Assembly: GCF_001541315.1 (NCBI RefSeq)
Contig: NZ_LMVK01000005.1
Coordinates: 1 to 64,000, forward strand
Length of the DNA stretch: 64,000 nt
Direction: 5' to 3'
Source of the DNA: Agrobacterium tumefaciens str. B6
Lineage (GTDB): Bacteria; Pseudomonadota; Alphaproteobacteria; Rhizobiales; Rhizobiaceae
The notes beneath the pieces are model-generated. The model searched no databases and had not been told where the DNA came from. It was given only the letters and a program-made list of their open reading frames with translations. Positions 7,555 through 64,000 of the stretch are shown here, in pieces (the stretch's first letter is position 1; every line of letters starts with the position of its first letter). A program made the position numbers and the translations under genes.

Positions 7555-8871
7555 CTAACGCGATCCCCGCTCGCGGCGCAGCTTCGCCCACCAGTCCAGA
7601 CGCTTGCGGATTTCCCTTTCGAAACCCCGGTCCGGCGGATCGTAAAAGGTCGTGCGCCCCATTTTCTCCGGGAAATAATCCTGCCCGGAAAAGGCATCCG
7701 GCTCGTCATGGTCGTAGCGATAGCCATCGCCGTAACCTTCGCCCTTCATGAGCTTGGTCGGCGCGTTCAGAATATGTTTCGGAGGCACCAGCGAGCCGTT
7801 TTCCTTGGCCGCCCGCATCGCCGACTTGAAGGCGTTATAGACGGCGTTCGATTTCGGCGCGGTGGCGAGATAGACGCAGGCCTGAGCCAATGCGAGCTCG
7901 CCTTCCGGTGAGCCCAGATAATCATAGGCGTCCTTGGCGGCATTGCAGACGACGAGCGCCTGCGGATCGGCAAGGCCGATATCCTCAACCGCCATGCGCA
8001 CCAGCCGCCGCCCGAGATAGAGCGGGTCTTCGCCGGCATCGAACATGCGGGCGAGATAATAAAGCGCCGCATCCGGGTCCGAACCGCGCACGGACTTATG
8101 CAGTGCGGAAATGAGATTATAGTGGCCGTCCTGGCTCTTGTCGTAAACCGGGGCGCGGCGCTGCACGATGCGGGTCAGCCCCTCGGTATCGAAGGTCTCA
8201 TCCTTGCGCGCCGCACGCCAGACCTCTTCGGCAAGCGTCAGCACGGCGCGGCCATCGCCGTCGGCCATGCGGATGAGGCTTGCGCGCGCCTCCTCGGTGA
8301 GCGGCAGGGGCTTGCCCTCCGCCTCCTCGGCGCGTTTCAATAATTCGCTCAGGCTCTCTTCGTCATGCGAGCCGAACGTCAACACGCGCGCCCGTGACAA
8401 CAGAGCGGCATTCAGCTCAAAGGACGGGTTTTCGGTGGTGGCGCCCACCAGAATGATGGTGCCGTCTTCCATCACCGGCAGGAAACTGTCCTGCTGGGCG
8501 CGGTTGAAACGATGAATTTCATCAACGAAAAGCAGCGTCTGCCGCCCATTCATCCGACGTGTGCGCGCTGCCTCGAAAACCTTCTTGAGATCGGCGCCAC
8601 CGGAAAAGATCGCCGAAATCTGCTCAAAGGCCACCCCCGCCTCGCCGGAAAGCAGCCGCGCAACGGTGGTCTTGCCGGTGCCGGGCGGGCCCCAGAAGAT
8701 CATCGATCCCAACGACCCGCTATCGATCATGCGGCGCAGAACGCCCTCCTCGCCCGTCAGATGCGGCTGCCCGGTCACCTCCGCCAGCGTCTTCGGACGC
8801 AGGCGATCGGCAAGAGGCCGCCGGTTGGCGACCTCCACGGGCACTTGCGGGGCGAAAAGATCGTCGCTCAT
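7555..8871 (-). CDS. rarA: Replication-associated recombination protein A (AAA+ ATPase)
   Basis: A 438-residue protein of the RarA/MgsA (WRNIP1) family. Walker A GPPGTGKTT is at residues 61-69, Walker B LLFVDEIHRFN at about 113-123, followed by sensor and clamp-loader-like C-terminal parts (VRGSDPDAALYYLARM, and the family-typical NAPTKLMKGEGYGDGYRYDHD). It acts at stalled replication forks with RecA and SSB. Its start overlaps the end of the upstream protease gene by 4 bases, a pairing common in Rhizobiales. Length is usual for the family. Confidence 0.95.
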   Translation of the reverse strand: MSDDLFAPQVPVEVANRRPLADRLRPKTLAEVTGQPHLTGEEGVLRRMIDSGSLGSMIFWGPPGTGKTTVARLLSGEAGVAFEQISAIFSGGADLKKVFEAARTRRMNGRQTLLFVDEIHRFNRAQQDSFLPVMEDGTIILVGATTENPSFELNAALLSRARVLTFGSHDEESLSELLKRAEEAEGKPLPLTEEARASLIRMADGDGRAVLTLAEEVWRAARKDETFDTEGLTRIVQRRAPVYDKSQDGHYNLISALHKSVRGSDPDAALYYLARMFDAGEDPLYLGRRLVRMAVEDIGLADPQALVVCNAAKDAYDYLGSPEGELALAQACVYLATAPKSNAVYNAFKSAMRAAKENGSLVPPKHILNAPTKLMKGEGYGDGYRYDHDEPDAFSGQDYFPEKMGRTTFYDPPDRGFEREIRKRLDWWAKLRRERGSR

Positions 8872-10274
8872 CGCAGGAACTGCCGAATGCGTTGCCCGTC
8901 ACGCAGGATTTCCACGCGCCAGAAGCCGGGATTGTCATCCAGCGCCTTTTCGACCGCAGCGGTGGAGGCGATGTCTGCACCGTTCAGCGACAGGATCACA
9001 TCCTTCGGCTGGAAACCGACACGATAGGCCGGCGAACCGCGCTTCACATCGGTGATCACAACACCCGTCACCTGCGACGGCATCCGCAATTCATCGGCAA
9101 GCTTCGGCGAGAGATTGGCGACTGTCGCGCCGGCAAAGGGATTGCGGCCCTCGATCAGGCGCTCATCACGCGGCGCGGTTTCCGGCGCGGTGTCGAGCGC
9201 AATCGTAACTTTCTTCTCTTTGCCCTTTTCCACCACCGTTAGTTCGGCGGATTTGCCGATACCGGCGGTGGTCACGCGATATCCCAGCGCATCCGGATGC
9301 TCCACCTCGAAGCCATTGACGGCGGTAACGACCTCGCCGGGCTCGATGCCCGCCTTTTCGGCCGGTCCACCCTTGACGACGCTGACGACAAGCGCGCCGC
9401 GGGCCCGGTGCAGGCCAAGCGCTTCAGCAACGTCTGATGTCACGGGATCGAAGGTGGCACCGATATAGGGACGCTCGAAGCTCGCGTCACCGCGTTCAGC
9501 AGCAGCGACGAAAACCCGGACGAGATTGGCGGGGGTGGCGAAACCGATACCGTTCGATCCGCCGCCCCTGGAGAAGATCGCCGTATTGATGCCGATCAGC
9601 TCACCCGCCATGTTCATCAGCGCGCCGCCGGAATTGCCGGGGTTGATGGAGGCGTCGGTCTGGATGAAGAAGCCGAAATCACCCTGCGTTACCTGGTTGC
9701 GGGCGAGACCCGAGACAATGCCGCTCGTCACCGTCTGGCCGACACCGAAGGGGTTGCCGATGGCAAGCACCAGATCACCAACTTCAATCGCATCGGAATT
9801 GCCAAGCGACAGCACCGGGAACTGCTCTTTCGCATCAATCTGCAGAACGGCGAGATCGACCCGGTCATCTTTCAGCAGCACCTTGGAGGAGAACTCACGC
9901 CCATCCGCCAGCGCCACCTTGATGTCGTCAGCACCGTCGATGACGTGATTGTTGGTCACCACGAGGCCGCCGGCGGTCACGATCACGCCGGAGCCGAGCG
10001 ACGACTGTTTTTCCGTGCGGTTCGGCATCTGCTGGCCGAAGAACTGCTCGAAGAAAGGATCGCCGGCAAAGGGCGACAGACGCCGCTGCACGACACGCTC
10101 GGCATAGACATTCACGACAGCGCCTGCGGTGCGCTTGACCAGCGGCGCAAAGGAAAGCTGCATTTCCGTGTGGCTTGAGGGCACGGTCCTGTTGTCCTGT
10201 GCGCCAGCGCCCCCGGGCAGGAGAATGAGCGCGGCAAGAAAGCCGGTGGACAGATACTTCAACACGCTTCGCAT
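8868..10274 (-). CDS. Do-family periplasmic serine protease (DegP/HtrA-like)
   Basis: A 468-residue protease. ATG 10274 is chosen because GAGG lies six bases upstream and the product begins with a clear signal peptide (about residues 1-25, ending GAGA-QDN). The catalytic triad is visible: H110 (VVTNNHV), D140 (DDRVDLAVL) and S215 (NPGNSGGAL). Two PDZ domains follow, about 270-355 and 385-465. It should degrade or refold misfolded periplasmic proteins. Several Do-like paralogues exist in this group, so I do not assign degP. A TATAAC box lies near 10310. Overlaps rarA by 4 bases. Confidence 0.93.
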   Translation of the reverse strand: MRSVLKYLSTGFLAALILLPGGAGAQDNRTVPSSHTEMQLSFAPLVKRTAGAVVNVYAERVVQRRLSPFAGDPFFEQFFGQQMPNRTEKQSSLGSGVIVTAGGLVVTNNHVIDGADDIKVALADGREFSSKVLLKDDRVDLAVLQIDAKEQFPVLSLGNSDAIEVGDLVLAIGNPFGVGQTVTSGIVSGLARNQVTQGDFGFFIQTDASINPGNSGGALMNMAGELIGINTAIFSRGGGSNGIGFATPANLVRVFVAAAERGDASFERPYIGATFDPVTSDVAEALGLHRARGALVVSVVKGGPAEKAGIEPGEVVTAVNGFEVEHPDALGYRVTTAGIGKSAELTVVEKGKEKKVTIALDTAPETAPRDERLIEGRNPFAGATVANLSPKLADELRMPSQVTGVVITDVKRGSPAYRVGFQPKDVILSLNGADIASTAAVEKALDDNPGFWRVEILRDGQRIRQFLR

Positions 10275-10353
10275 GTGATTCCTCATCGTCATCAGTATGA
10301 TGGAGTTATAACGCCAAAGCCTGTAAAGCAAAGAGCGGCAAGATGATGGCTAT

Positions 10354-10415
10354 CCTTTTCCCAAGCCGCGCCTTTTCCCAAGCCGCGCCTTTTCCCAAGC
10401 CGCGCCTTTTCCCAA
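10354..10415. repeat. 17-bp tandem repeat, 3.6 copies
   Basis: The unit CCTTTTCCCAAGCCGCG is repeated exactly three times (10354-10370, 10371-10387, 10388-10404) and then for 11 more bases. It lies between the divergent protease and LprI-like genes. Perfect identity suggests recent slippage. Confidence 0.95.
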
Positions 10416-10434
10416 ATCATGGCAACAGCGAAAT

Positions 10435-10460
10435 GGAACCAGCGAGCCGCCTTTCCGGTT
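10435..10460 (+). promoter_or_regulatory. Possible EcfG-type promoter before the LprI-like gene
   Basis: GGAAC, 17 bases, GGTT, about 35 bases before the start codon. The -35 matches the general stress sigma factor site; the -10 differs from CGTT by one base. Confidence 0.3.
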
Positions 10461-10494
10461 TCATCCGCAACAGCATTTCTCAAAGAGACACGTC

Positions 10495-10845
10495 ATGGAT
10501 TTGAAAAAGCCCCTCCTCGCCTGCGGCCTGCTCCTCGCCCCCTCCCTCGTTTCGCCGGCCGCTGCTGCAAGCTTCGATTGCGGAAAGACCGATCTGGCGG
10601 CCGATGAAAAGGCGATCTGCGACAACCGTGCCCTCAACGATCAGGATGTGAAGATGGCCACCACCTTCGACATCCTCACCCAGCTGATGGCCATGGGTGC
10701 ACGCGACACGCTGCGCGACGAACAGAGCAAATGGCTGAAGAAACGTCAGGAGTGTTCAGCCGACGTTGCCTGCCTGACAGCCGCCTATGAGGAGCGCATG
10801 AAACGTCTCGGAGAGGCGTTCCAGAGCATCAACAGGCCGCTCTGA
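10495..10845 (+). CDS. Secreted LprI-like (DUF1311) protein
   Basis: A 116-residue protein with a signal peptide (about residues 1-25, ending PAAAA-S). The mature part has four cysteines (C29, C42, C87, C93), the spacing typical of the lysozyme-inhibitor LprI N-terminal domain family, with the block LRDEQSKWLKKRQEC. Some members inhibit lysozyme, but the family is broad and the activity here is unproven. It stands alone on the plus strand, with a possible stress promoter and a 17-bp repeat just upstream. Confidence 0.75.
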   Translation: MDLKKPLLACGLLLAPSLVSPAAAASFDCGKTDLAADEKAICDNRALNDQDVKMATTFDILTQLMAMGARDTLRDEQSKWLKKRQECSADVACLTAAYEERMKRLGEAFQSINRPL

Positions 10846-10861
10846 CCATTATCGCCTGCCC

Positions 10862-11863
10862 TTACACCGCACGGATGATGACTTCCATGAGGCCATGCAA
10901 CTGATCGCGATAACCGGTTCTGGCGGAAGGTGCATCCTCACGAGAGGTCATCACGACGGATAGCCGCCTTGCGGGAACGATATAGAGCATCTGCCCGCCA
11001 TAACCCCAGGCGTAATAGACCGTTTCGCCCGCCATTTCCTTGATGAACCAGCAATAACCATATCCGTCGCCGTTGAAGACCGAATTTGTGCGCTGCTGCC
11101 AGGACTGGTCGATCCAGCCTTGCGAAATCAGTCGCTCGCCCTCCGGTGTCGTCCCGCCACGCCGGTAAAGCTCGCCGAAGGCCAGCAACGATCGCGCCGT
11201 CATCGCCATCTGGTTGCCGCCGAGATAGACACCCTGCGGATCACGCTCCCAGCCGCCGATCGCAAATCCCTTGAGCGGACGAAACCAGTCACGTGCCAGA
11301 GCAAGCGTCGAGCGGCCGGAGGCCCTGGTCAATATCGCCGAGAGCAGATGGGTGGAGGCGGTGGAATAAAGCATGCCGCCGCCCGGTTCTCCGGCAAAAC
11401 CGGAACCCAGCGCCATCCGAACCCAGTTGCGGCTGGCGACCCAGCGGCCGTAATTCGGCCCGGACATGCGCTCCAGACCTGACTGCATGGACAACAGGTT
11501 GCCGATGGTGATCCGTTCCAGCCGGGGATCGGGACTTGGCGGAAAATCGCCGCGCAGAACTGTCGCAATCGGCTGGTCTGCACTCTCGATGATCTTGCGA
11601 TCAATCGCCATGCCGACCAGCGCCGAAATGATCGATTTCGAGGCCGACTTGATATTGGTGGAGCCATTCACGCTGGCCCCATGATAGGCGCGGCTTGCGA
11701 CCTCCTCGCCGTCAATGCTGACTAGGACCGTCCTGAGGCTGGAAAGCGCGTCCGCCTCCCTCAGCAACGGATCGAAACGGATGCCATTGCTGGAGCTTTG
11801 CGCGCGGGCAAGTTCAGCAAAAGGCAGGGACGCAATGAGGGCGAGTGCGGTTCGTCTTTTCAT
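10862..11863 (-). CDS. Serine hydrolase, class C beta-lactamase-like fold
   Basis: A 333-residue protein with a probable signal peptide (residues 1-21, ending ARA-Q). The SxxK catalytic motif is seen as SASK in NIKSASKSIISALVG (about residues 71-85), the usual position for class C/penicillin-binding-like hydrolases. The later part has the family pattern WGYGGQMLYIVPARRLSVVMTSRED. Such proteins are esterases, peptidases or unknown; nothing shows real beta-lactam resistance. It ends 16 bases from the converging LprI-like gene, with no terminator between. Confidence 0.85.
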   Translation of the reverse strand: MKRRTALALIASLPFAELARAQSSSNGIRFDPLLREADALSSLRTVLVSIDGEEVASRAYHGASVNGSTNIKSASKSIISALVGMAIDRKIIESADQPIATVLRGDFPPSPDPRLERITIGNLLSMQSGLERMSGPNYGRWVASRNWVRMALGSGFAGEPGGGMLYSTASTHLLSAILTRASGRSTLALARDWFRPLKGFAIGGWERDPQGVYLGGNQMAMTARSLLAFGELYRRGGTTPEGERLISQGWIDQSWQQRTNSVFNGDGYGYCWFIKEMAGETVYYAWGYGGQMLYIVPARRLSVVMTSREDAPSARTGYRDQLHGLMEVIIRAV

Positions 11864-11974
11864 GTCACTGAGCTAGTAAGCCATACGGCGATGAAAAGAG
11901 GTAACTCCGCCAATCACTCCAATGTGACCATATTTCAAGTACCGCATTCCCATACCGCAATTTGATAGTCCACC

Positions 11975-11999
11975 GGAACCTTCATGAAAACAAGGCGTT
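11975..11999 (+). promoter_or_regulatory. EcfG-type general stress promoter
   Basis: GGAAC (11975-11979), 16 bases, CGTT (11996-11999). This fits the alphaproteobacterial EcfG/RpoE2 consensus. A transcript would start near 12006, about 87 bases before the GNAT gene. Confidence 0.5.
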
Positions 12000-12092
12000 G
12001 CCATGCATTCCGGAATCGAGATGCGAAGCGCTTGAATCAGTTTCTGATCTTGAGGACTATCGCCCTGCCACAAATGCAAAAGACGGGAAACG

Positions 12093-12575
12093 ATGCCGCA
12101 ATTGAAATCATCACGCCTTGTCCTCCGACCTTTTAAGATGACGGACTCGCCGCCGCTCGCCCGGCTGACGAACGACCCGCTCATATTGCGCAATCTGCTG
12201 CGCACGACCTACCCTTTCGAACCCGATGATGCACGGCGTCTGATCAGGCGCATTGCTGAACGCCGGCTCCCGGTATGGGCGGTGGATGACGGCAGGCTGG
12301 TCGGTCTCATCGGCCTTTCAGGCGAATTCGGCCTTTGGCTTGATCGCCGTGTTTGGGGAAAGGGCTACGGAGAAGAAGCCGGACGCCTCGTCATCGATTA
12401 TGCCTTTCAGCACATGGGCATCAAGACCCTGCATGCCAATCCCCTATTTGACAACAGGGCGTCGCACCGTCTGATGGACAAGCTGGGTTTTGTTGCGACC
12501 GGCCGTGCAACTGCCCTTTGCAGGCAACGGAGAAAAGTTGTGCCGCTTCGACCTTATCGGCTCGATAAAGAGTGA
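12093..12575 (+). CDS. GNAT family N-acetyltransferase
   Basis: A 160-residue single-domain acetyltransferase of the RimJ/RimL-like branch. It has the opening SSRLVLRPFKMTDSPPL, the acetyl-CoA region LDRRVWGKGYGEEAGRLVIDYAF (about residues 84-106) and the closing block HANPLFDNRASHRLMDKLGFV. The substrate (a protein N terminus, an amine or an antibiotic) cannot be told. The start ATG 12093 has only a weak ribosome site. An EcfG-type promoter upstream suggests stress control. Confidence 0.85.
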   Translation: MPQLKSSRLVLRPFKMTDSPPLARLTNDPLILRNLLRTTYPFEPDDARRLIRRIAERRLPVWAVDDGRLVGLIGLSGEFGLWLDRRVWGKGYGEEAGRLVIDYAFQHMGIKTLHANPLFDNRASHRLMDKLGFVATGRATALCRQRRKVVPLRPYRLDKE

Positions 12576-12585
12576 TCGGCACAAA

Positions 12586-12613
12586 AAAGCCGCCGTTAAT
12601 CAACGGCGGCTTT
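12586..12613. terminator. Bidirectional terminator between GNAT gene and ilvD
   Basis: A 12-bp stem AAAGCCGCCGTT / AACGGCGGCTTT with an AATC loop, with T runs on both strands. Confidence 0.9.
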
Positions 12614-12636
12614 TTATCATCTCGCAGATCCGGAAA

Positions 12637-14472
12637 TTACTCCGGCAGAATCCGCACGGCACCCTTGTCCGCACTGGACGCAAAGGCAGCATAGGCCTTC
12701 AGCGCCGTCGTGACATTGCGCTTGCGCGGTGCTTCCGGCTTCCAGCCCAGCTCTTCCTGTTCGGCGCGGCGCGAAGCCAGTTCCGAATCCGCTACCCTGA
12801 GATTGATCGTGCGGTTCGGGATATCGATCTCGATCAGGTCACCCTGGCGTACGAGGCCGATTGCGCCGCCCTGCGCCGCTTCCGGCGAGGCGTGACCGAT
12901 CGAGAGGCCAGAAGTGCCGCCCGAGAAACGACCGTCGGTGATCAGTGCGCAGGCTTTGCCGAGGCCCTTGGATTTCAGGTAGCTGGTCGGATAGAGCATT
13001 TCCTGCATGCCCGGGCCGCCCTTCGGTCCTTCATAACGGATGACGACGACGTCGCCCGCCTTGACCTCGTTGCCGAGAATGCCCTTCACCGCTGCGTCCT
13101 GGCTTTCGTAAACGACCGCCGGGCCAGTGAATTTCAGGATGGATTCGTCAACACCCGCAGTTTTCACGATGCAGCCGTCGAGCGCGATGTTGCCGTAAAG
13201 CACGGCCAGACCACCATCCTTGGAGAAGGGCTTTTCGACCGAGCGGATGACGCCGTTGTCGCTATCTGTATCCAGATCGTCCCAACGCGAGGACTGGCTG
13301 AAAGCCACCTGTGTCGGCACGCCGCCGGGGGCAGCCTTGAAGAATTCACGCACCGTCTCGCTATTGGTGCGGGTGATGTCCCAGCGGTCGATGGCATCGC
13401 CAAGCGTCGCTTCGTGCACCGTATAGGTATCGCGGTTGATGAGGCCGCCGCGTTCCAGCTCACCGAGAATACGCATGATGCCACCCGCACGGTGAACGTC
13501 TTCCATGTGCACGTCCTGCTTGGCAGGCGCCACCTTGGAAAGGCAGGGAACCTTGCGGGAAAGACGATCGATGTCTTCCATGCCGAAATCGACACCGCCC
13601 TCATGCGCCGCCGCCAGAATATGCAGCACCGTATTGGTGGAGCCGCCCATGGCGATATCCAGCGACATGGCGTTTTCGAACGCCGCCTTGTTGGCGATGG
13701 TGCGCGGCAGAACGGTCTCGTCGTCCTGCTCGTAATAACGGCGCGCCAGATCAACGATCAGGTGACCGGCTTCGACAAACAGCCGCCGGCGATCCGAATG
13801 GGTGGCGAGCGTCGAACCGTTGCCGGGCAATGACAGACCCAGAGCCTCGGTCAGACAGTTCATCGAATTGGCGGTGAACATGCCGGAGCAGGAACCGCAG
13901 GTCGGGCAGGCCGAACGCTCGATGACCTTCACGTCCTCGTCGGAAATCTTGTCATCTGCTGCCGCAACCATGGCGTCGACCAGATCAAGCGCGACCGTCT
14001 TGCCGTGCAGAACGACCTTGCCCGCTTCCATGGGGCCGCCGGAAACGAAAACGGCGGGAATGTTGAGACGCCTCGCCGCATTCAGCATGCCGGGCGGGGT
14101 CTTGTCGCAGTTGGAAATGCACACCATCGCATCGGCGCAATGGGCATTGACCATATATTCCACGGAATCCGCAATGATTTCGCGCGACGGCAGCGAATAG
14201 AGCATGCCGTCATGGCCCATGGCGATGCCGTCATCAACCGCGATGGTGTTGAATTCCTTGGCGACGCCGCCTGCCGCCTCGATTTCACGGGCAACGAGCT
14301 GGCCAAGATCCTTCAGATGCACATGGCCCGGCACGAACTGCGTGAAGGAATTGACGACAGCGATGATCGGCTTGCCGAAATCGCTGTCCTTCATGCCGGT
14401 GGCGCGCCAAAGGCCGCGCGCGCCCGCCATGTTGCGGCCGTGGGTTGTCGTTCTTGAGCGATAGGCTGGCAT
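12637..14472 (-). CDS. ilvD: Dihydroxy-acid dehydratase
   Basis: A 611-residue enzyme that dehydrates dihydroxy acids to the 2-keto acid precursors of valine, isoleucine and, through them, leucine and pantothenate. It is the long enterobacterial-type form. Iron-sulfur ligand candidates are C122 (NCDKTPPG) and C195 ([11 protein letters not shown]); K124 next to the first is the usual carbamylated metal-binding lysine. ATG 14472 is chosen for its GAGGAAA site and for the conserved opening [21 protein letters not shown]; the frame is open 14 codons further up. A monocistronic gene, with convergent terminator downstream. Confidence 0.97.
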
Positions 14473-14704
14473 GGTGTTTTCCTCGATCTCATGGCGAAGA
14501 GCGCATTGCCGCAAAGGCGGTAAAAATAGCTCCTGCCCTATTTTGCGGTTTTTCTAGCGCAAACCGCAAGCCCTGTCACTGTCACCTTCAGGCAAAACAG
14601 TACGGTTCGGTACGGTACGCCGCTTCCCGATGCAGCAATTCACGCGACCACTTATCACAAATGCGCGATTTCCGCCGCCCGGCCGTTGTTTTTGCACGAC
14701 GCGC

Positions 14705-14731
14705 TGAAACATATCTGTGCAGCAGCCGTAT
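14705..14731 (+). promoter_or_regulatory. ECF-type promoter before msrP
   Basis: TGAAAC (14705-14710), 16 bases, CGTAT (14727-14731). The same two boxes occur on both strands at 63.3 kb. Transcription would start near 14739, about 46 bases before the msrP start. Confidence 0.55.
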
Positions 14732-14784
14732 AGCCTATCATAATCGATTTATCGCCGATGCACCCGGCTTTTGTGGAGGTTGAA

Positions 14785-15726
14785 ATGCCCGCCTATCGTC
14801 CGCCCCTGATCGCGGCTACAGAAATCACGCCGAAGAATATCTACCTGTCCCGACGCGGCTTCCTCGGTACGGCGGCAGGACTTGCAGCAATCGGGCTTGG
14901 CGGCCGCGAGGCAATTGCCGCTCCGCTTACGGCGAAACCAGGCGCCTACAAGCTGGATGAAAAGCTCACCCCGCTCGACGCCGTCACCAGCTACAATAAT
15001 TTTTACGAATTCGGCGTCGGAAAATCCGACCCTAAGGAAAATTCCGGCAAGTTCAAGCCCACCCCATGGACCGTGAAGGTGGATGGCCTTGTCTCCAAAC
15101 CGCAAGAATTCGGCATCGAAGAGCTGATGAAATATCAGCTCGAAGAGCGTACCTATCGCATGCGTTGTGTCGAGGGCTGGTCGATGGTCATTCCATGGAT
15201 CGGTTTCCCCCTCGCGGCACTTCTCGATAAGGTGGAGCCGCTTGGCAGCGCCAAATACGTGTCCTTCGAAACCGTGGTGCGGCCGGATGAAATGCCCGGC
15301 CAGAGCGGTCTGTTCCAGCCTCTGTCCTGGCCCTATGTCGAGGGTTTGCGCCTCGATGAGGCACGCCACCCGCTGACCATTCTGGCCGTCGGCCTATACG
15401 GCGAAACGCTGCCGAACCAGAACGGCGCACCTATCCGCCTCGTTGTTCCGTGGAAATACGGTTTCAAGGGCATCAAATCCATCGTCCGGATTTCGCTGAC
15501 CGAGAAACAGCCGGAAACGACGTGGAAAAACTCCAACGCCCGCGAATATGGCTTCTACTCCAACGTCAATCCGCATGTGGACCATCCGCGCTGGAGCCAG
15601 GCGACGGAACAGCGCATCGGCGAAGGCGGCTTTTTTGGCACCCAGAACCGCCCTACCCTGATGTTCAACGGTTATGACGAGGTGGCTGGCCTTTATACCG
15701 GCATGGACCTGAAAGCGAATTATTGA
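14785..15726 (+). CDS. msrP: Protein-methionine-sulfoxide reductase, molybdopterin subunit
   Basis: A 313-residue periplasmic enzyme (formerly YedY) that reduces oxidised methionines in envelope proteins. ATG 14785 is preceded at five bases by GGAGG; an in-frame ATG nine codons earlier is less likely. A Tat signal SRRGFLG is at about 22-28. C128 in MRCVEGWSM is the molybdenum ligand. [12 protein letters not shown] and [19 protein letters not shown] are sulfite-oxidase-fold blocks. It is followed at once by the membrane haem partner msrQ. Confidence 0.95.
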
Positions 15727-61431: not shown

Positions 61432-62457
61432 TTAACTGGGCATCAGAAGGTAATGTCCGACACCCCAGACCTCCCCACCCTGATGCCCGAACAGCCCGGC
61501 GGTTGCGAGGAAGAAAAGTCGCCAGCGGCGTTCCCACAGTCTCGCGTCGTTTCCGTAAACGCGCTTCAGGATCGGCCGGACACGGTCAATCTCCCGGTCA
61601 AAATTCGCCAGCCAATCAAGAGCTGTCCGTCGATAATGTAGACCGGACCATCGCCAGTCCTGTTCTACAGTGAAAATCTTCCCAAAACGATGGGGAAGAT
61701 CGAAGGCAGGCATGATACCGCCGGTGAAGAAGTGCCGGGCGATCCAGTCTGCCGGATTATTGTGGTCAAAACGGTAGGATCGGTCACGGTGGTTGAAGAC
61801 GTGCAGGAAGAACCTGCCTTCCGGCTGCAGCCAGGAACGAACCCGCTCGAATAACATCTGCCAGTTCGACATGTGCTCGAACATCTCCACCGACACGACA
61901 CGATCGAAACGATTGCCTGTCGTGAAATCATTCATGTCGGCGGTTACCACCGAAAGGTTGGAGAAGCCGCGCTCCCGGGCGCAGCCGATTATGTAGTCAC
62001 GCTGCGATGCTGAGTTCGAAACGGATGTGATCCGCGCATTGGGAAATCGGCCCGCCATATACAGGGAAAGCGAACCCCAACCGCAGCCGAGTTCCAGAAT
62101 ATCCATGCCATCACGCAGCCCGGCATGGGCCACTGTCTCGGAAAGCGCCACGGTCTCGGCTTCATCCAGCGTCGTCGTGGCGTCGGGATAATAACAGCAG
62201 GAATATTTGCGCTGCGCTCCGAGAACCAGCGAGAAAAACTCCGCTGGGACTTCGTAATGTTGTCTGTTCGCCTCGTCGGTGTGGCTGGCTATGGGAAACG
62301 TCGCCATATCCTTCGCAAAGGCCAATTCGGCATCATCGGGAATATTTGCAAGCCGCCGTTTCGTTCGCACGCAGAGCATATCTATACCGGCCAGTGTGAC
62401 CGCGTCAGTGAGCGGTGCGCGTTCTGCGGCATTGATGGCGAAGGCGAGCATATTCAT
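61432..62457 (-). CDS. CFA-synthase-like SAM-dependent methyltransferase
   Basis: 341 residues of the cyclopropane-fatty-acid synthase family. The SAM motif ILELGCGWGSLSLYMA is near 120-135; FDRVVSVEMFEHM and LHVFNHRDRSYRFD are later family blocks. The N terminus is shorter than in typical CFA synthase and resembles the branch that also contains plant coclaurine-like methyltransferases. It should methylate unsaturated fatty acids of membrane lipids, though the product could be other than a cyclopropane. It overlaps the upstream DUF1295 gene by 4 bases. Confidence 0.85.
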   Translation of the reverse strand: MNMLAFAINAAERAPLTDAVTLAGIDMLCVRTKRRLANIPDDAELAFAKDMATFPIASHTDEANRQHYEVPAEFFSLVLGAQRKYSCCYYPDATTTLDEAETVALSETVAHAGLRDGMDILELGCGWGSLSLYMAGRFPNARITSVSNSASQRDYIIGCARERGFSNLSVVTADMNDFTTGNRFDRVVSVEMFEHMSNWQMLFERVRSWLQPEGRFFLHVFNHRDRSYRFDHNNPADWIARHFFTGGIMPAFDLPHRFGKIFTVEQDWRWSGLHYRRTALDWLANFDREIDRVRPILKRVYGNDARLWERRWRLFFLATAGLFGHQGGEVWGVGHYLLMPS

Positions 62458-63242
62458 GGCGTTTCCTCGTTCTTGCGCGGGCCCGGAAAGAAGGCGTTGA
62501 CGCGGCGTTGCAGGACGCGGAACCTCTCTCCGCGCGATTTCAGCATGTGCTCTTCAAGCGGCGGAATGCCGGAGACGTGGACGAGCAGCCAATACATCAT
62601 GATGGGTGCAGCAAGCGACGCCCAGGACAAGACCTGCTCCTGAACGGCGAGCAGCGGGAAACTGCACCAGAAAAGCCATTCGAAGAAATAATTGGGATGG
62701 CGGGAATAACGCCAAAGGCCGGTTTCACAGACGCCGGTTTTTGCTTCCGGCGTTTTCCTGAATTTTGAAAGCTGGGCATCCGAGAGCGCTTCACCGGCCA
62801 GTGCGGCAAAAGCGACCGCCGTGGCGAAAATATCGATGAGACGCGGAAAACCCTGGCCGTTGCCGGAAGCGAGATAAACCGCAAGAACGAGCACGAAAGC
62901 GGCAATGGCCTGTATCTGGAGGAAGATGAAAAGTCTGAGAGGGGCTGCGCTGCCCCATTGCTTGATGAGCTTTGCATAACGGGGATCTTCTCCGCCGCCC
63001 TGCGTGCGCATGCCTATATGCCCGGCAAGTCGCAACGACCAGACGACGACAAGGGAAAATACGACCGCGCGCCGCCAGCCTTCTCCTTCCGCGAATAAAA
63101 CTGCTAAAACTCCGCCAAACCCGACACTCGCCGACCAGACGGTGTCGATCCAGCCGCTCGAACCGGTTGCTCTTTGCAGCGCCCACGCGCCTGCCATCAG
63201 AAGCGACATGAGAATGGCAAGCGCCAGGATCACAGACAACAT
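62454..63242 (-). CDS. DUF1295 (steroid-reductase-like) membrane protein
   Basis: 262 residues from ATG 63242; the frame continues far upstream but that part crosses the promoter and is not coding. About six or seven membrane segments; the C-terminal block CETGLWRYSRHPNYFFEWLFW is typical of DUF1295 proteins, related to steroid 5-alpha reductases and isoprenylcysteine methyltransferases. It probably reduces or modifies a lipid, in one unit with the methyltransferase that it overlaps by 4 bases. Confidence 0.85.
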   Translation of the reverse strand: MLSVILALAILMSLLMAGAWALQRATGSSGWIDTVWSASVGFGGVLAVLFAEGEGWRRAVVFSLVVVWSLRLAGHIGMRTQGGGEDPRYAKLIKQWGSAAPLRLFIFLQIQAIAAFVLVLAVYLASGNGQGFPRLIDIFATAVAFAALAGEALSDAQLSKFRKTPEAKTGVCETGLWRYSRHPNYFFEWLFWCSFPLLAVQEQVLSWASLAAPIMMYWLLVHVSGIPPLEEHMLKSRGERFRVLQRRVNAFFPGPRKNEETP

Positions 63243-63294: not shown

Positions 63295-63322
63295 ATACGA
63301 CCGAACCGGCAAAAGAGTTTCA
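63295..63322 (-). promoter_or_regulatory. ECF-type promoter, minus strand, before the DUF1295-CFA unit
   Basis: TGAAAC (63322-63317), 17 bases, CGTAT (63299-63295) on the minus strand. It would start about 45 bases before the DUF1295 start codon. Confidence 0.6.
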
Positions 63323-63357
63323 GGTTTCGGAAAAGATTCCAAAAAAACACCAGCCGC

Positions 63358-63385
63358 TGAAACTTATCCGCCCCCTCCCTCGTAT
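63358..63385 (+). promoter_or_regulatory. ECF-type promoter, plus strand, before the FAD oxidoreductase
   Basis: TGAAAC (63358-63363), 17 bases, CGTAT (63381-63385) on the plus strand. It would start about 40 bases before the FAD oxidoreductase start codon. The boxes and spacing are identical to the divergent site 36 bases away. Confidence 0.6.
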
Positions 63386-63431: not shown

Positions 63432-64000
63432 ATGACCGACACGGAAACGAGACAAAAAGATAGCCGGTACCGCATCGCAATTGTGGGAACAGGAATTTCC
63501 GGCCTGTCGGCAGCGTGGCTTTTGTCGAAACGGCACGATGTCACGGTCTTTGAGGCGGCTGATCGCGTCGGCGGCCACAGCAACACGGTGACATTCGATA
63601 CGGATAAAGGACCGGCTCATGTCGATACCGGGTTCATTGTCTATAACGAGTGGACCTATCCCAATCTCACCGCGCTTTTTCGAACGCTTGACGTACAGAC
63701 CGCAGCGTCGAACATGTCTTTTGCCGTTTCCCTCGACAATGGCGACTTTGAATATTCCGGTGGAACCGGTCTTGGCCTGCTGGCACAGAAGAGAAATGTG
63801 CTCAGACCACGTTTCTGGGCGATGGTTGCGGACCTCCTTCGGTTTTACCGCAATGCCCCTCGCGACCTGCATTTGATGGGCAATACATCGCTCGACGAAT
63901 ATCTCACGCACAACCGGTACGGATCGGCGTTCCGCGACGATCATCTTTACCCCATGGCGGCAGCCATATGGTCCACGCCGGCCATGGAGGTCGGCCGTTA
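63432..64000 (+). CDS. FAD-dependent amine-oxidase-like oxidoreductase, N-terminal part
   Basis: The first 189 residues; the frame runs off the window. ATG 63432 follows GAGGA. The dinucleotide-binding motif IAIVGTGISGLSAAWLL is at about 15-31, followed by the second FAD block ADRVGGHSNTV and VDTGFIVYNEWTYPNL. This is the COG2907 type, which in many proteobacteria sits with a DUF1365 protein and a CFA-like methyltransferase in lipid-modifying clusters under ECF sigma control. Divergent from the DUF1295-CFA unit. Confidence 0.88.
   Translation, partial: MTDTETRQKDSRYRIAIVGTGISGLSAAWLLSKRHDVTVFEAADRVGGHSNTVTFDTDKGPAHVDTGFIVYNEWTYPNLTALFRTLDVQTAASNMSFAVSLDNGDFEYSGGTGLGLLAQKRNVLRPRFWAMVADLLRFYRNAPRDLHLMGNTSLDEYLTHNRYGSAFRDDHLYPMAAAIWSTPAMEVGR

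Follow-up and report, generated by a model that had tools for sequence, protein, structure and literature searches.

The locus examined here raises the question of which sigma factor would read two matching sequence motifs that lie, one on each strand, between two divergent sets of lipid genes in Agrobacterium tumefaciens str. B6. The window, that is, the whole analysed stretch of 64,000 nucleotides, corresponds to C5:1-64000, and the genome to which it belongs (5.65 Mb, 52 contigs) was scanned as well. An earlier note on this DNA had proposed that a pair of ECF promoters faces the two halves of the locus, and this arrangement was borne out. The start codons of the DUF1295 gene (63242, minus strand) and of the FAD oxidoreductase gene (63432, plus strand) bound a gap of 189 bases, in which TGAAAC-N17-CGTAT is read as one exact copy per strand, as the note had said (Table 1). 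The two strands agree over a greater length in the fuller form CTGAAACT-N16-CGTAT. The end of CGTAT is separated from the start codon by 52 bases at the minus site and by 46 bases at the plus site, not by the 40-45 bases first estimated. EcfG promoters carry GGAAC and CGTT boxes, and the assertion that TGAAAC/CGTAT belongs neither to this type, as quoted there, nor to sigma-70 was upheld, the gap being free of sigma-70-like sites. In the region, no excess over shuffled sequence was observed for sigma-70-like sites (2 versus 2.5) or for terminator-like sites (7 versus 8.2). The A-rich stretch that separates the two -35 boxes could possibly act as a shared upstream element for both promoters.

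Table 1. Features of the divergent lipid locus and of the msrP region (plain positions refer to the window, C5 positions to the contig).
Feature	Position	Strand	Basis
CMAS/CFA-like SAM methyltransferase, gene 2 of the minus unit, overlaps gene 1	61432..62457	-	PF02353, 144 bits
DUF1295 (steroid 5-alpha-reductase-like) membrane protein, gene 1 of the minus unit	62454..63242	-	PF06966, 259 bits
Putative SigK-type promoter, CTGAAACT-N16-CGTAT, facing the DUF1295-CMAS unit	63295..63322	-	matrix score 23.6; genus recurrence
A-rich stretch separating the two -35 boxes	63323..63357		34-37 bases across 19 loci
Putative SigK-type promoter, CTGAAACT-N16-CGTAT, facing the FAD-oxidoreductase (ufaD-like) operon	63358..63385	+	matrix score 23.6; recurrence
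FAD amine-oxidase-like, UfaD-like oxidoreductase	63432..64000 in the window, ends C5:64805	+	PF01593, 93.5 bits
sigK, ECF sigma factor, likely ATG at C5:67879	C5:67879-68421	+	PF04542, PF08281; NF009167, 311.7 bits (cut-off 265)
rskA, RskA-type membrane anti-sigma factor, overlaps sigK	ends C5:69128	+	PF10099 (RskA_C), 81.8 bits (cut-off 29.4)
msrP, methionine sulfoxide reductase, followed by an msrQ-like frame	about 14758-15726	+	NF003767, 470.2 bits

Dinucleotide shuffling of the intergenic segment 63255-63431 (177 bases) produced an inverted pair, defined as non-overlapping inverted copies of any 6+5 shared bases at a spacing of 15-19, in 31 of 3000 rounds; when the window was cut into 361 tiles as long as this segment, 7 contained one. 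By itself, the inverted pair is an event of about 1-2%, and it is the recurrence of both sites in relatives that settles the matter.

When the genome was scanned, TGAAAC-N16/17-CGTAT gave 4 matches versus 1 for the reversed control. The shorter TGAAAC-N16/17-CGTA was not enriched (5 versus 10), nor was TGAAACT-N15/16-CGTM (6 versus 8), and since the genome-wide count did not rise above the reversed control, the motif alone is poorly predictive. A motif as common inside genes as before them had been named beforehand as evidence against the promoters, and genome-wide this is formally what the 5 versus 10 matches amount to; we read this count as reflecting a tiny regulon, not a false site. The other matches to TGAAAC-N16/17-CGTA (C24 and C52), which are antisense to or inside the starts of coding regions, were put down to chance. 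Further matches to TGAAACT-N15/16-CGTM lie inside long reading frames (C34, C50) or early in a reading frame (C8).

The plus-strand operon is ordered as FAD gene, DUF1365/UfaO-like gene, CMAS/UfaM-like gene, DUF2147, DUF2177, sigK and rskA. Its genes overlap or are closely spaced, the largest gap being the 125 bases between DUF2177 and the likely ATG of the sigma factor. In profile searches, the DUF1365 protein reached 264 bits with PF07103 and the CMAS-type methylase 279.6 bits with PF02353. Amine-oxidase-like, DUF1365 and CMAS-type genes are encoded together, which is the combination expected for UfaM-UfaD-UfaO, and by family resemblance the operon is a presumed furan fatty acid operon (ufaD-ufaO-ufaM-like), the three roles being assigned from this resemblance plus published descriptions of the pathway. 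In these reports, UfaD, UfaO (DUF1365) and UfaM are the furan fatty acid synthesis genes (PMC7380195), singlet oxygen reacts with furan fatty acids, and the genes are core targets of ECF11 sigma factors (PMC7380195, PMC6852236). For the DUF1295-CMAS unit, our guess would be that it methylates or reduces lipids in a second step. Past rskA, response-regulator and kinase-like frames occupy C5 about 69214-76448 (8214-15448 of the extracted locus L008), among them a histidine kinase resembling bacteriophytochromes (324.7 bits with the BphP model, cut-off of 1040 not reached). This cluster may possibly give the furan-lipid operon a light-sensing neighbourhood.

The sigma factor had been reported as absent from the window. 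It does lie outside, 3.9 kb beyond the edge, but it is not remote, as sigK is the last-but-one gene of the FAD-oxidoreductase operon itself. The encoded protein contains ECF regions 2 and 4 only (PF04542, PF08281), and among solved structures its best match is SigK of M. tuberculosis (4nqw, E 4.6e-27). In the alignment, residues Cys170 and Cys220 of the protein (P0001) fall on Cys150 and Cys200 of 4nqw, which we take to be Cys133 and Cys183 of SigK, assuming a native length of 187. According to PMC7509140, cysteines at the SigK positions occur in 94% of ECF18 and 56% of ECF19 members. The RskA protein has one predicted hydrophobic span (residues 104-122) and is devoid of cysteines. The suggestion of a SigW-type system holds for the promoter boxes, but not for the protein, which gave 70.8 bits with the SigW equivalog model TIGR02948 (cut-off 243.1); by its sequence relationships, the sigma factor is classed as SigK-like, not SigW. 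Searching the genome for ChrR (TIGR02451) gave 0 matches at E 0.001. Upstream of sigK, no TGAAACT-type site of its own was found, and the gene would be reached by read-through from the plus promoter. In the family, a SigK-like gene is present in 141 of 247 genomes (E 1e-40).

The FAD gene was matched in 35 of the 39 genomes of the genus, with 71-100% identity in 19 of them and 54-57% in the other 16. The closest named relative among the matches listed is a locus of Agrobacterium pusense (L010; FAD protein, 88%), and the wider collection of FAD loci comprises at least 80. In all 19 loci of the first group, sigK starts 4390-4472 bases past the start of the FAD gene on the same strand. The plus site, TGAAACT-N16-CGTA, is present in 19/19, and so is the minus site, TGAAAC[T/C]-N16-CGTA, with T in 17 loci and C in 2. 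As the sites were located by TGAAAC[T/C]-N16-CGTA, the invariance of the boxes (11/11 and 10/11 positions) restates their presence, and what counts as independent evidence is that the spacers drift: only 3 of 16 spacer positions are invariant at each site, and 2 of 13 and 1 of 13 flanking positions at the two sites. The distance from -35 box to -35 box stays at 34-37 bases. That the boxes recur at a fixed N16 while spacers and flanks drift argues for two bipartite promoters at work. Ten of the 16 loci with 54-57% identity, which are of the ChrR type, were read; all 10 have a minus-strand TGATCC-N16-CGTA and lack TGAAACT.

The motif was linked to SigK through a different set of genes. Among 40 SigK-like loci of the family taken with about 4 kb of flanks, one was lipid-linked (L244, of genome G190), and in 38 of the 39 remaining ones a fasciclin match follows rskA; the exception, L224, was left out of the fasciclin set. 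TGAAACT-N15/16-CGT[AC] was found upstream of 36 of 56 fasciclin genes and in 0 of 20 rounds of shuffling of the same regions, the exact motif being absent from 20 of the 56. A SigK matrix was built solely from the 43 fasciclin regions adjoining sigK-rskA, of which 42 fit the motif (TGAAACT and CGT intact in 38, one base off in 4) and 1 showed no site. With this matrix, both window sites reach 23.6, level with the highest-scoring training sites, for a 99% background of 7.8. Furthermore, 13 genomes of the genus possess the lipid-linked sigK as their sole sigK and have a strong fasciclin match elsewhere; the fasciclin gene is preceded by the exact motif in 10 of them and by a CGAAACT variant in 3. 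The 6 genomes of the genus that lack sigK gave no fasciclin match, and neither did the B6 genome. We take the TGAAACT-type motif to be the SigK motif of the family. In one genome (G275), sigK is present twice, at C1:1139816 and C2:1052620, one copy being fasciclin-linked (69%) and the other lipid-linked (91%). The matches listed in our literature search included neither a SigK motif in rhizobia nor regulation of furan fatty acid genes by SigK; in a survey of S. meliloti ECF factors (PMC6180224), the headings name no ECF18/ECF19 group and the text mentions neither RskA nor fasciclin.

A third match in the window, TGAAAC-N16-CGTAT (TGAAACA-N15-CGTAT in 7+5 notation), lies on the plus strand at 14705-14731, before msrP. 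This gene is present in 39/39 genomes of the genus; 30 of these loci were read, and the site was seen in 23, inside a leader that is conserved throughout. Because it is also found in two genomes devoid of both sigK and the FAD oxidoreductase (G259 and G280), and because the leader is conserved as a whole, it was rejected as a SigK target and probably belongs to another sigma factor.

In the family, 107 of 247 genomes contain a ChrR match that reaches the TIGR02451 cut-off. The FAD protein occurs in 116 family genomes, from which 40 loci were taken with long flanks, and the ChrR-linked set that was read comprises 57 loci with at least 50% identity in the FAD protein, those below 50% having been dropped. 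TGATCC-N16-CGTA, which PMC5507510 reports as the consensus for PSPTO_1043, an ECF11-type factor of P. syringae, occurs in the upstream 350 bases of 39 of these 57 loci. It is present in 37 of the 39 loci that lack a divergent DUF1295 gene (on both strands in 21) and in just 2 of the 18 that share the DUF1295 layout. A clean switch of motif with sigma type was therefore discarded as too simple. The 16 TGATCC-less loci of this layout, which belong to R. tropici, the R. leguminosarum group and Brucella/Ochrobactrum, carry CGAAACC, TGAACC, AAAACT or similar boxes, intermediate between the two motifs. Within the clade with this layout, the difference in boxes between sigma types would thus amount to about two bases and not be wholesale. 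An A-rich stretch between the -35 boxes is also present in ChrR-type loci with divergent DUF1295.

A SigK-matrix site scoring at least 15 and facing the FAD gene was found in 21 of 22 RskA-linked loci versus 4 of the 50 ChrR-linked loci scored. The 22 loci are the 19 of the genus plus L020, L021 and L023; L010 was omitted because its proteins equal those of G258. In L020, the site is exact on one strand and has C for T on the other. L021 shows degenerate sites alone (scores -0.0 and -4.3), and its sigma factor was not found. The 4 ChrR-linked loci (L175, L177, L183 and L189) also contain TGATCC-N16-CGTA, and L175 is the only one of the 57 with an exact TGAAACT-N16-CGTA. In L175, L177 and L183, the SigK-type site (TGAAACT/CGAAACT, N16, CGTA) lies 11-13 bases upstream of the TGATCC site, and in L189 72 bases; dual promoters are possible in all 4. 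In two other loci (L171 and L172, of G084 and G224), a SigK-type site precedes the FAD gene and neither sigma factor lies within the flanks. On each of these contigs sigK lies at a distance, about 122 kb and 86 kb respectively, and control by SigK in trans is possible.

Taken from the motif, the sigK-rskA linkage and the absence of a ChrR match, the locus is very probably under SigK-RskA control. We hold with considerable confidence that the head-to-head pair would act as promoters for one SigK-type ECF sigma factor (motif CTGAAACT-N16-CGT[A/C]) and drive both halves of the lipid locus, sigK-rskA included. The minus promoter would serve DUF1295-CMAS, and the plus promoter the ufaD-ufaO-ufaM-like genes, DUF2147 and DUF2177, then sigK and the membrane-bound anti-sigma factor rskA. 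RskA would release SigK upon a signal whose likely class is oxidative or photo-oxidative membrane damage, SigK-RNA polymerase would fire both promoters and thereby yield furan/methylated-fatty-acid enzymes, and more SigK and RskA would be made, so that positive feedback of SigK-RskA on its own operon is likely. The response to oxidative membrane damage, as well as transcription from both sites, its extension as far as sigK, the signal and the lipid product, are what we infer from this arrangement.

The alternative that survives best, although unlikely, is that the sites serve another ECF sigma factor (ECF11-like without ChrR, or EcfG-like) and that sigK-rskA is a mere hitch-hiker. Orthologous loci elsewhere are indeed ChrR-linked, with TGATCC-N16-CGTA or CGAAACC/TGAACC variants; the B6 genome encodes further sigma-like candidates, and it contains 9 TGATCC-N16/17-CGTA matches (L157-L165) versus 0 for the reversed control. 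However, all 9 fall within reading frames of at least 100 codons, no TGATCC-N16-CGTA was found upstream of the B6 FAD gene, and ChrR was not found in this genome. Furthermore, the window motif is that of the sigK-linked fasciclin genes and coincides with sigK linkage in every one of the 19 same-genus loci, whereas the 10 ChrR-type loci of the genus have TGATCC on the minus strand and no TGAAACT. It is still less probable that the two sites are the halves of one inverted repeat, recognised by a dimeric regulator (repressor or activator), and not promoters: the copies are inverted about a centre at a nearly constant distance, but two boxes at a fixed N16 persist as spacers drift, a single unit stands alone upstream of fasciclin genes, and in L020 the two strands are not identical. 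Chance resemblance of two strings in a short gap, for which the shuffles and tiles left some room, is refuted by the recurrence of both sites with variable spacers in all 19 relatives and hardly deserves further credit.

The history of the locus was followed in trees. In that of the FAD oxidoreductase, from which rows with stops or fewer than 380 residues were left out, the Agrobacterium-type loci group together (20 rows, support 100/99), and the RskA-linked L023, L021 and L020 branch off basally to the ChrR loci of Rhizobium/Brucella (support 94/65, 95/69 and 96/90). Seventeen genus loci (L246-L262) were marked 'na' in this tree solely because their flanks end before sigK. In the SigK tree, the lipid-linked factors group (21 rows, 90/78), L020 excepted, and this tree would allow a single origin for them. 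Either SigK control is old in the clade and was lost in Rhizobium/Brucella, or it was gained more than once; old SigK control later given up would explain the intermediate boxes of Rhizobium/Brucella. It may be that the furan operon passed from ECF11 sigma-E-ChrR to SigK-RskA in Neorhizobium, Pararhizobium and agrobacteria, its promoters changing accordingly, and that the B6 genome is now without ChrR. We put this forward tentatively, giving it somewhat less than even weight: bridging states exist (double SigK-like/ECF11 sites, a SigK-type site with an unlinked sigma factor, and the intermediate boxes of ChrR-linked Rhizobium/Brucella loci), and the odds of such a handover are lowered by the presence of TGATCC in so few ChrR-linked loci of the same layout.

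Several known systems resemble this one in part. In M. tuberculosis, the SigK targets MPT70 and MPT83 are fasciclin-domain proteins, and the mycobacterial SigK promoter boxes differ from the TGAAAC/CGTA type. The pair described here shares with M. tuberculosis SigK-RskA (ECF19-type) the nearest solved sigma structure, an RskA_C partner with one span and the aligned cysteines; in relatives, the gene after rskA is a fasciclin gene with the same promoter. It differs in that the adjacent targets in B6 are lipid genes, in a genome without a fasciclin match, and in that the B6 boxes are SigW-like. As in the ECF11 sigma-E-ChrR systems of R. sphaeroides and P. syringae (PMC7380195, PMC6852236, PMC5507510), UfaD, DUF1365 UfaO and UfaM are targets under a sigma-anti-sigma pair, but at the B6 locus RskA replaces ChrR and CTGAAACT-N16-CGTA replaces TGATCC-N16-CGTA. 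The 'RpoE-ChrR' of R. capsulatus, which PMC7074977 describes as singlet-oxygen-induced and closer to SigK-RskA, is similarly a SigK-RskA-like pair in place of a relative's ECF11-ChrR; unlike in B6, the lipid operon is not included, the table in PMC7074977 holding no homolog of RSP_1090/RSP_1091 (UfaO, UfaD). Finally, the B. subtilis SigW promoter, given in PMC2375139 as TGAAAC-N16,17-CGTA, is alike, whereas the B6 sigma factor is not SigW and its partner is RskA-type.

The picture that emerges, with good confidence as regards the identity of the sigma factor, is of a presumed furan-lipid locus that is very probably controlled by SigK-RskA and probably amplifies its own expression, whereas in many relatives the corresponding locus is under ChrR. 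This names a sigma factor for an orphan promoter pair and provides a tight consensus for the widespread SigK-RskA-fasciclin systems of rhizobia. A further suggestion is that a protective furan-lipid operon changed its regulator together with the promoter sequence, with intermediates still visible. If this is true, SigK-RskA would be the membrane-oxidation sensor of agrobacteria, and the locus would record a traceable natural swap in which the same genes exchanged their stress sigma factor. The passage of genes between sigma factors, usually a theoretical question, would thus become directly testable in easily handled bacteria.
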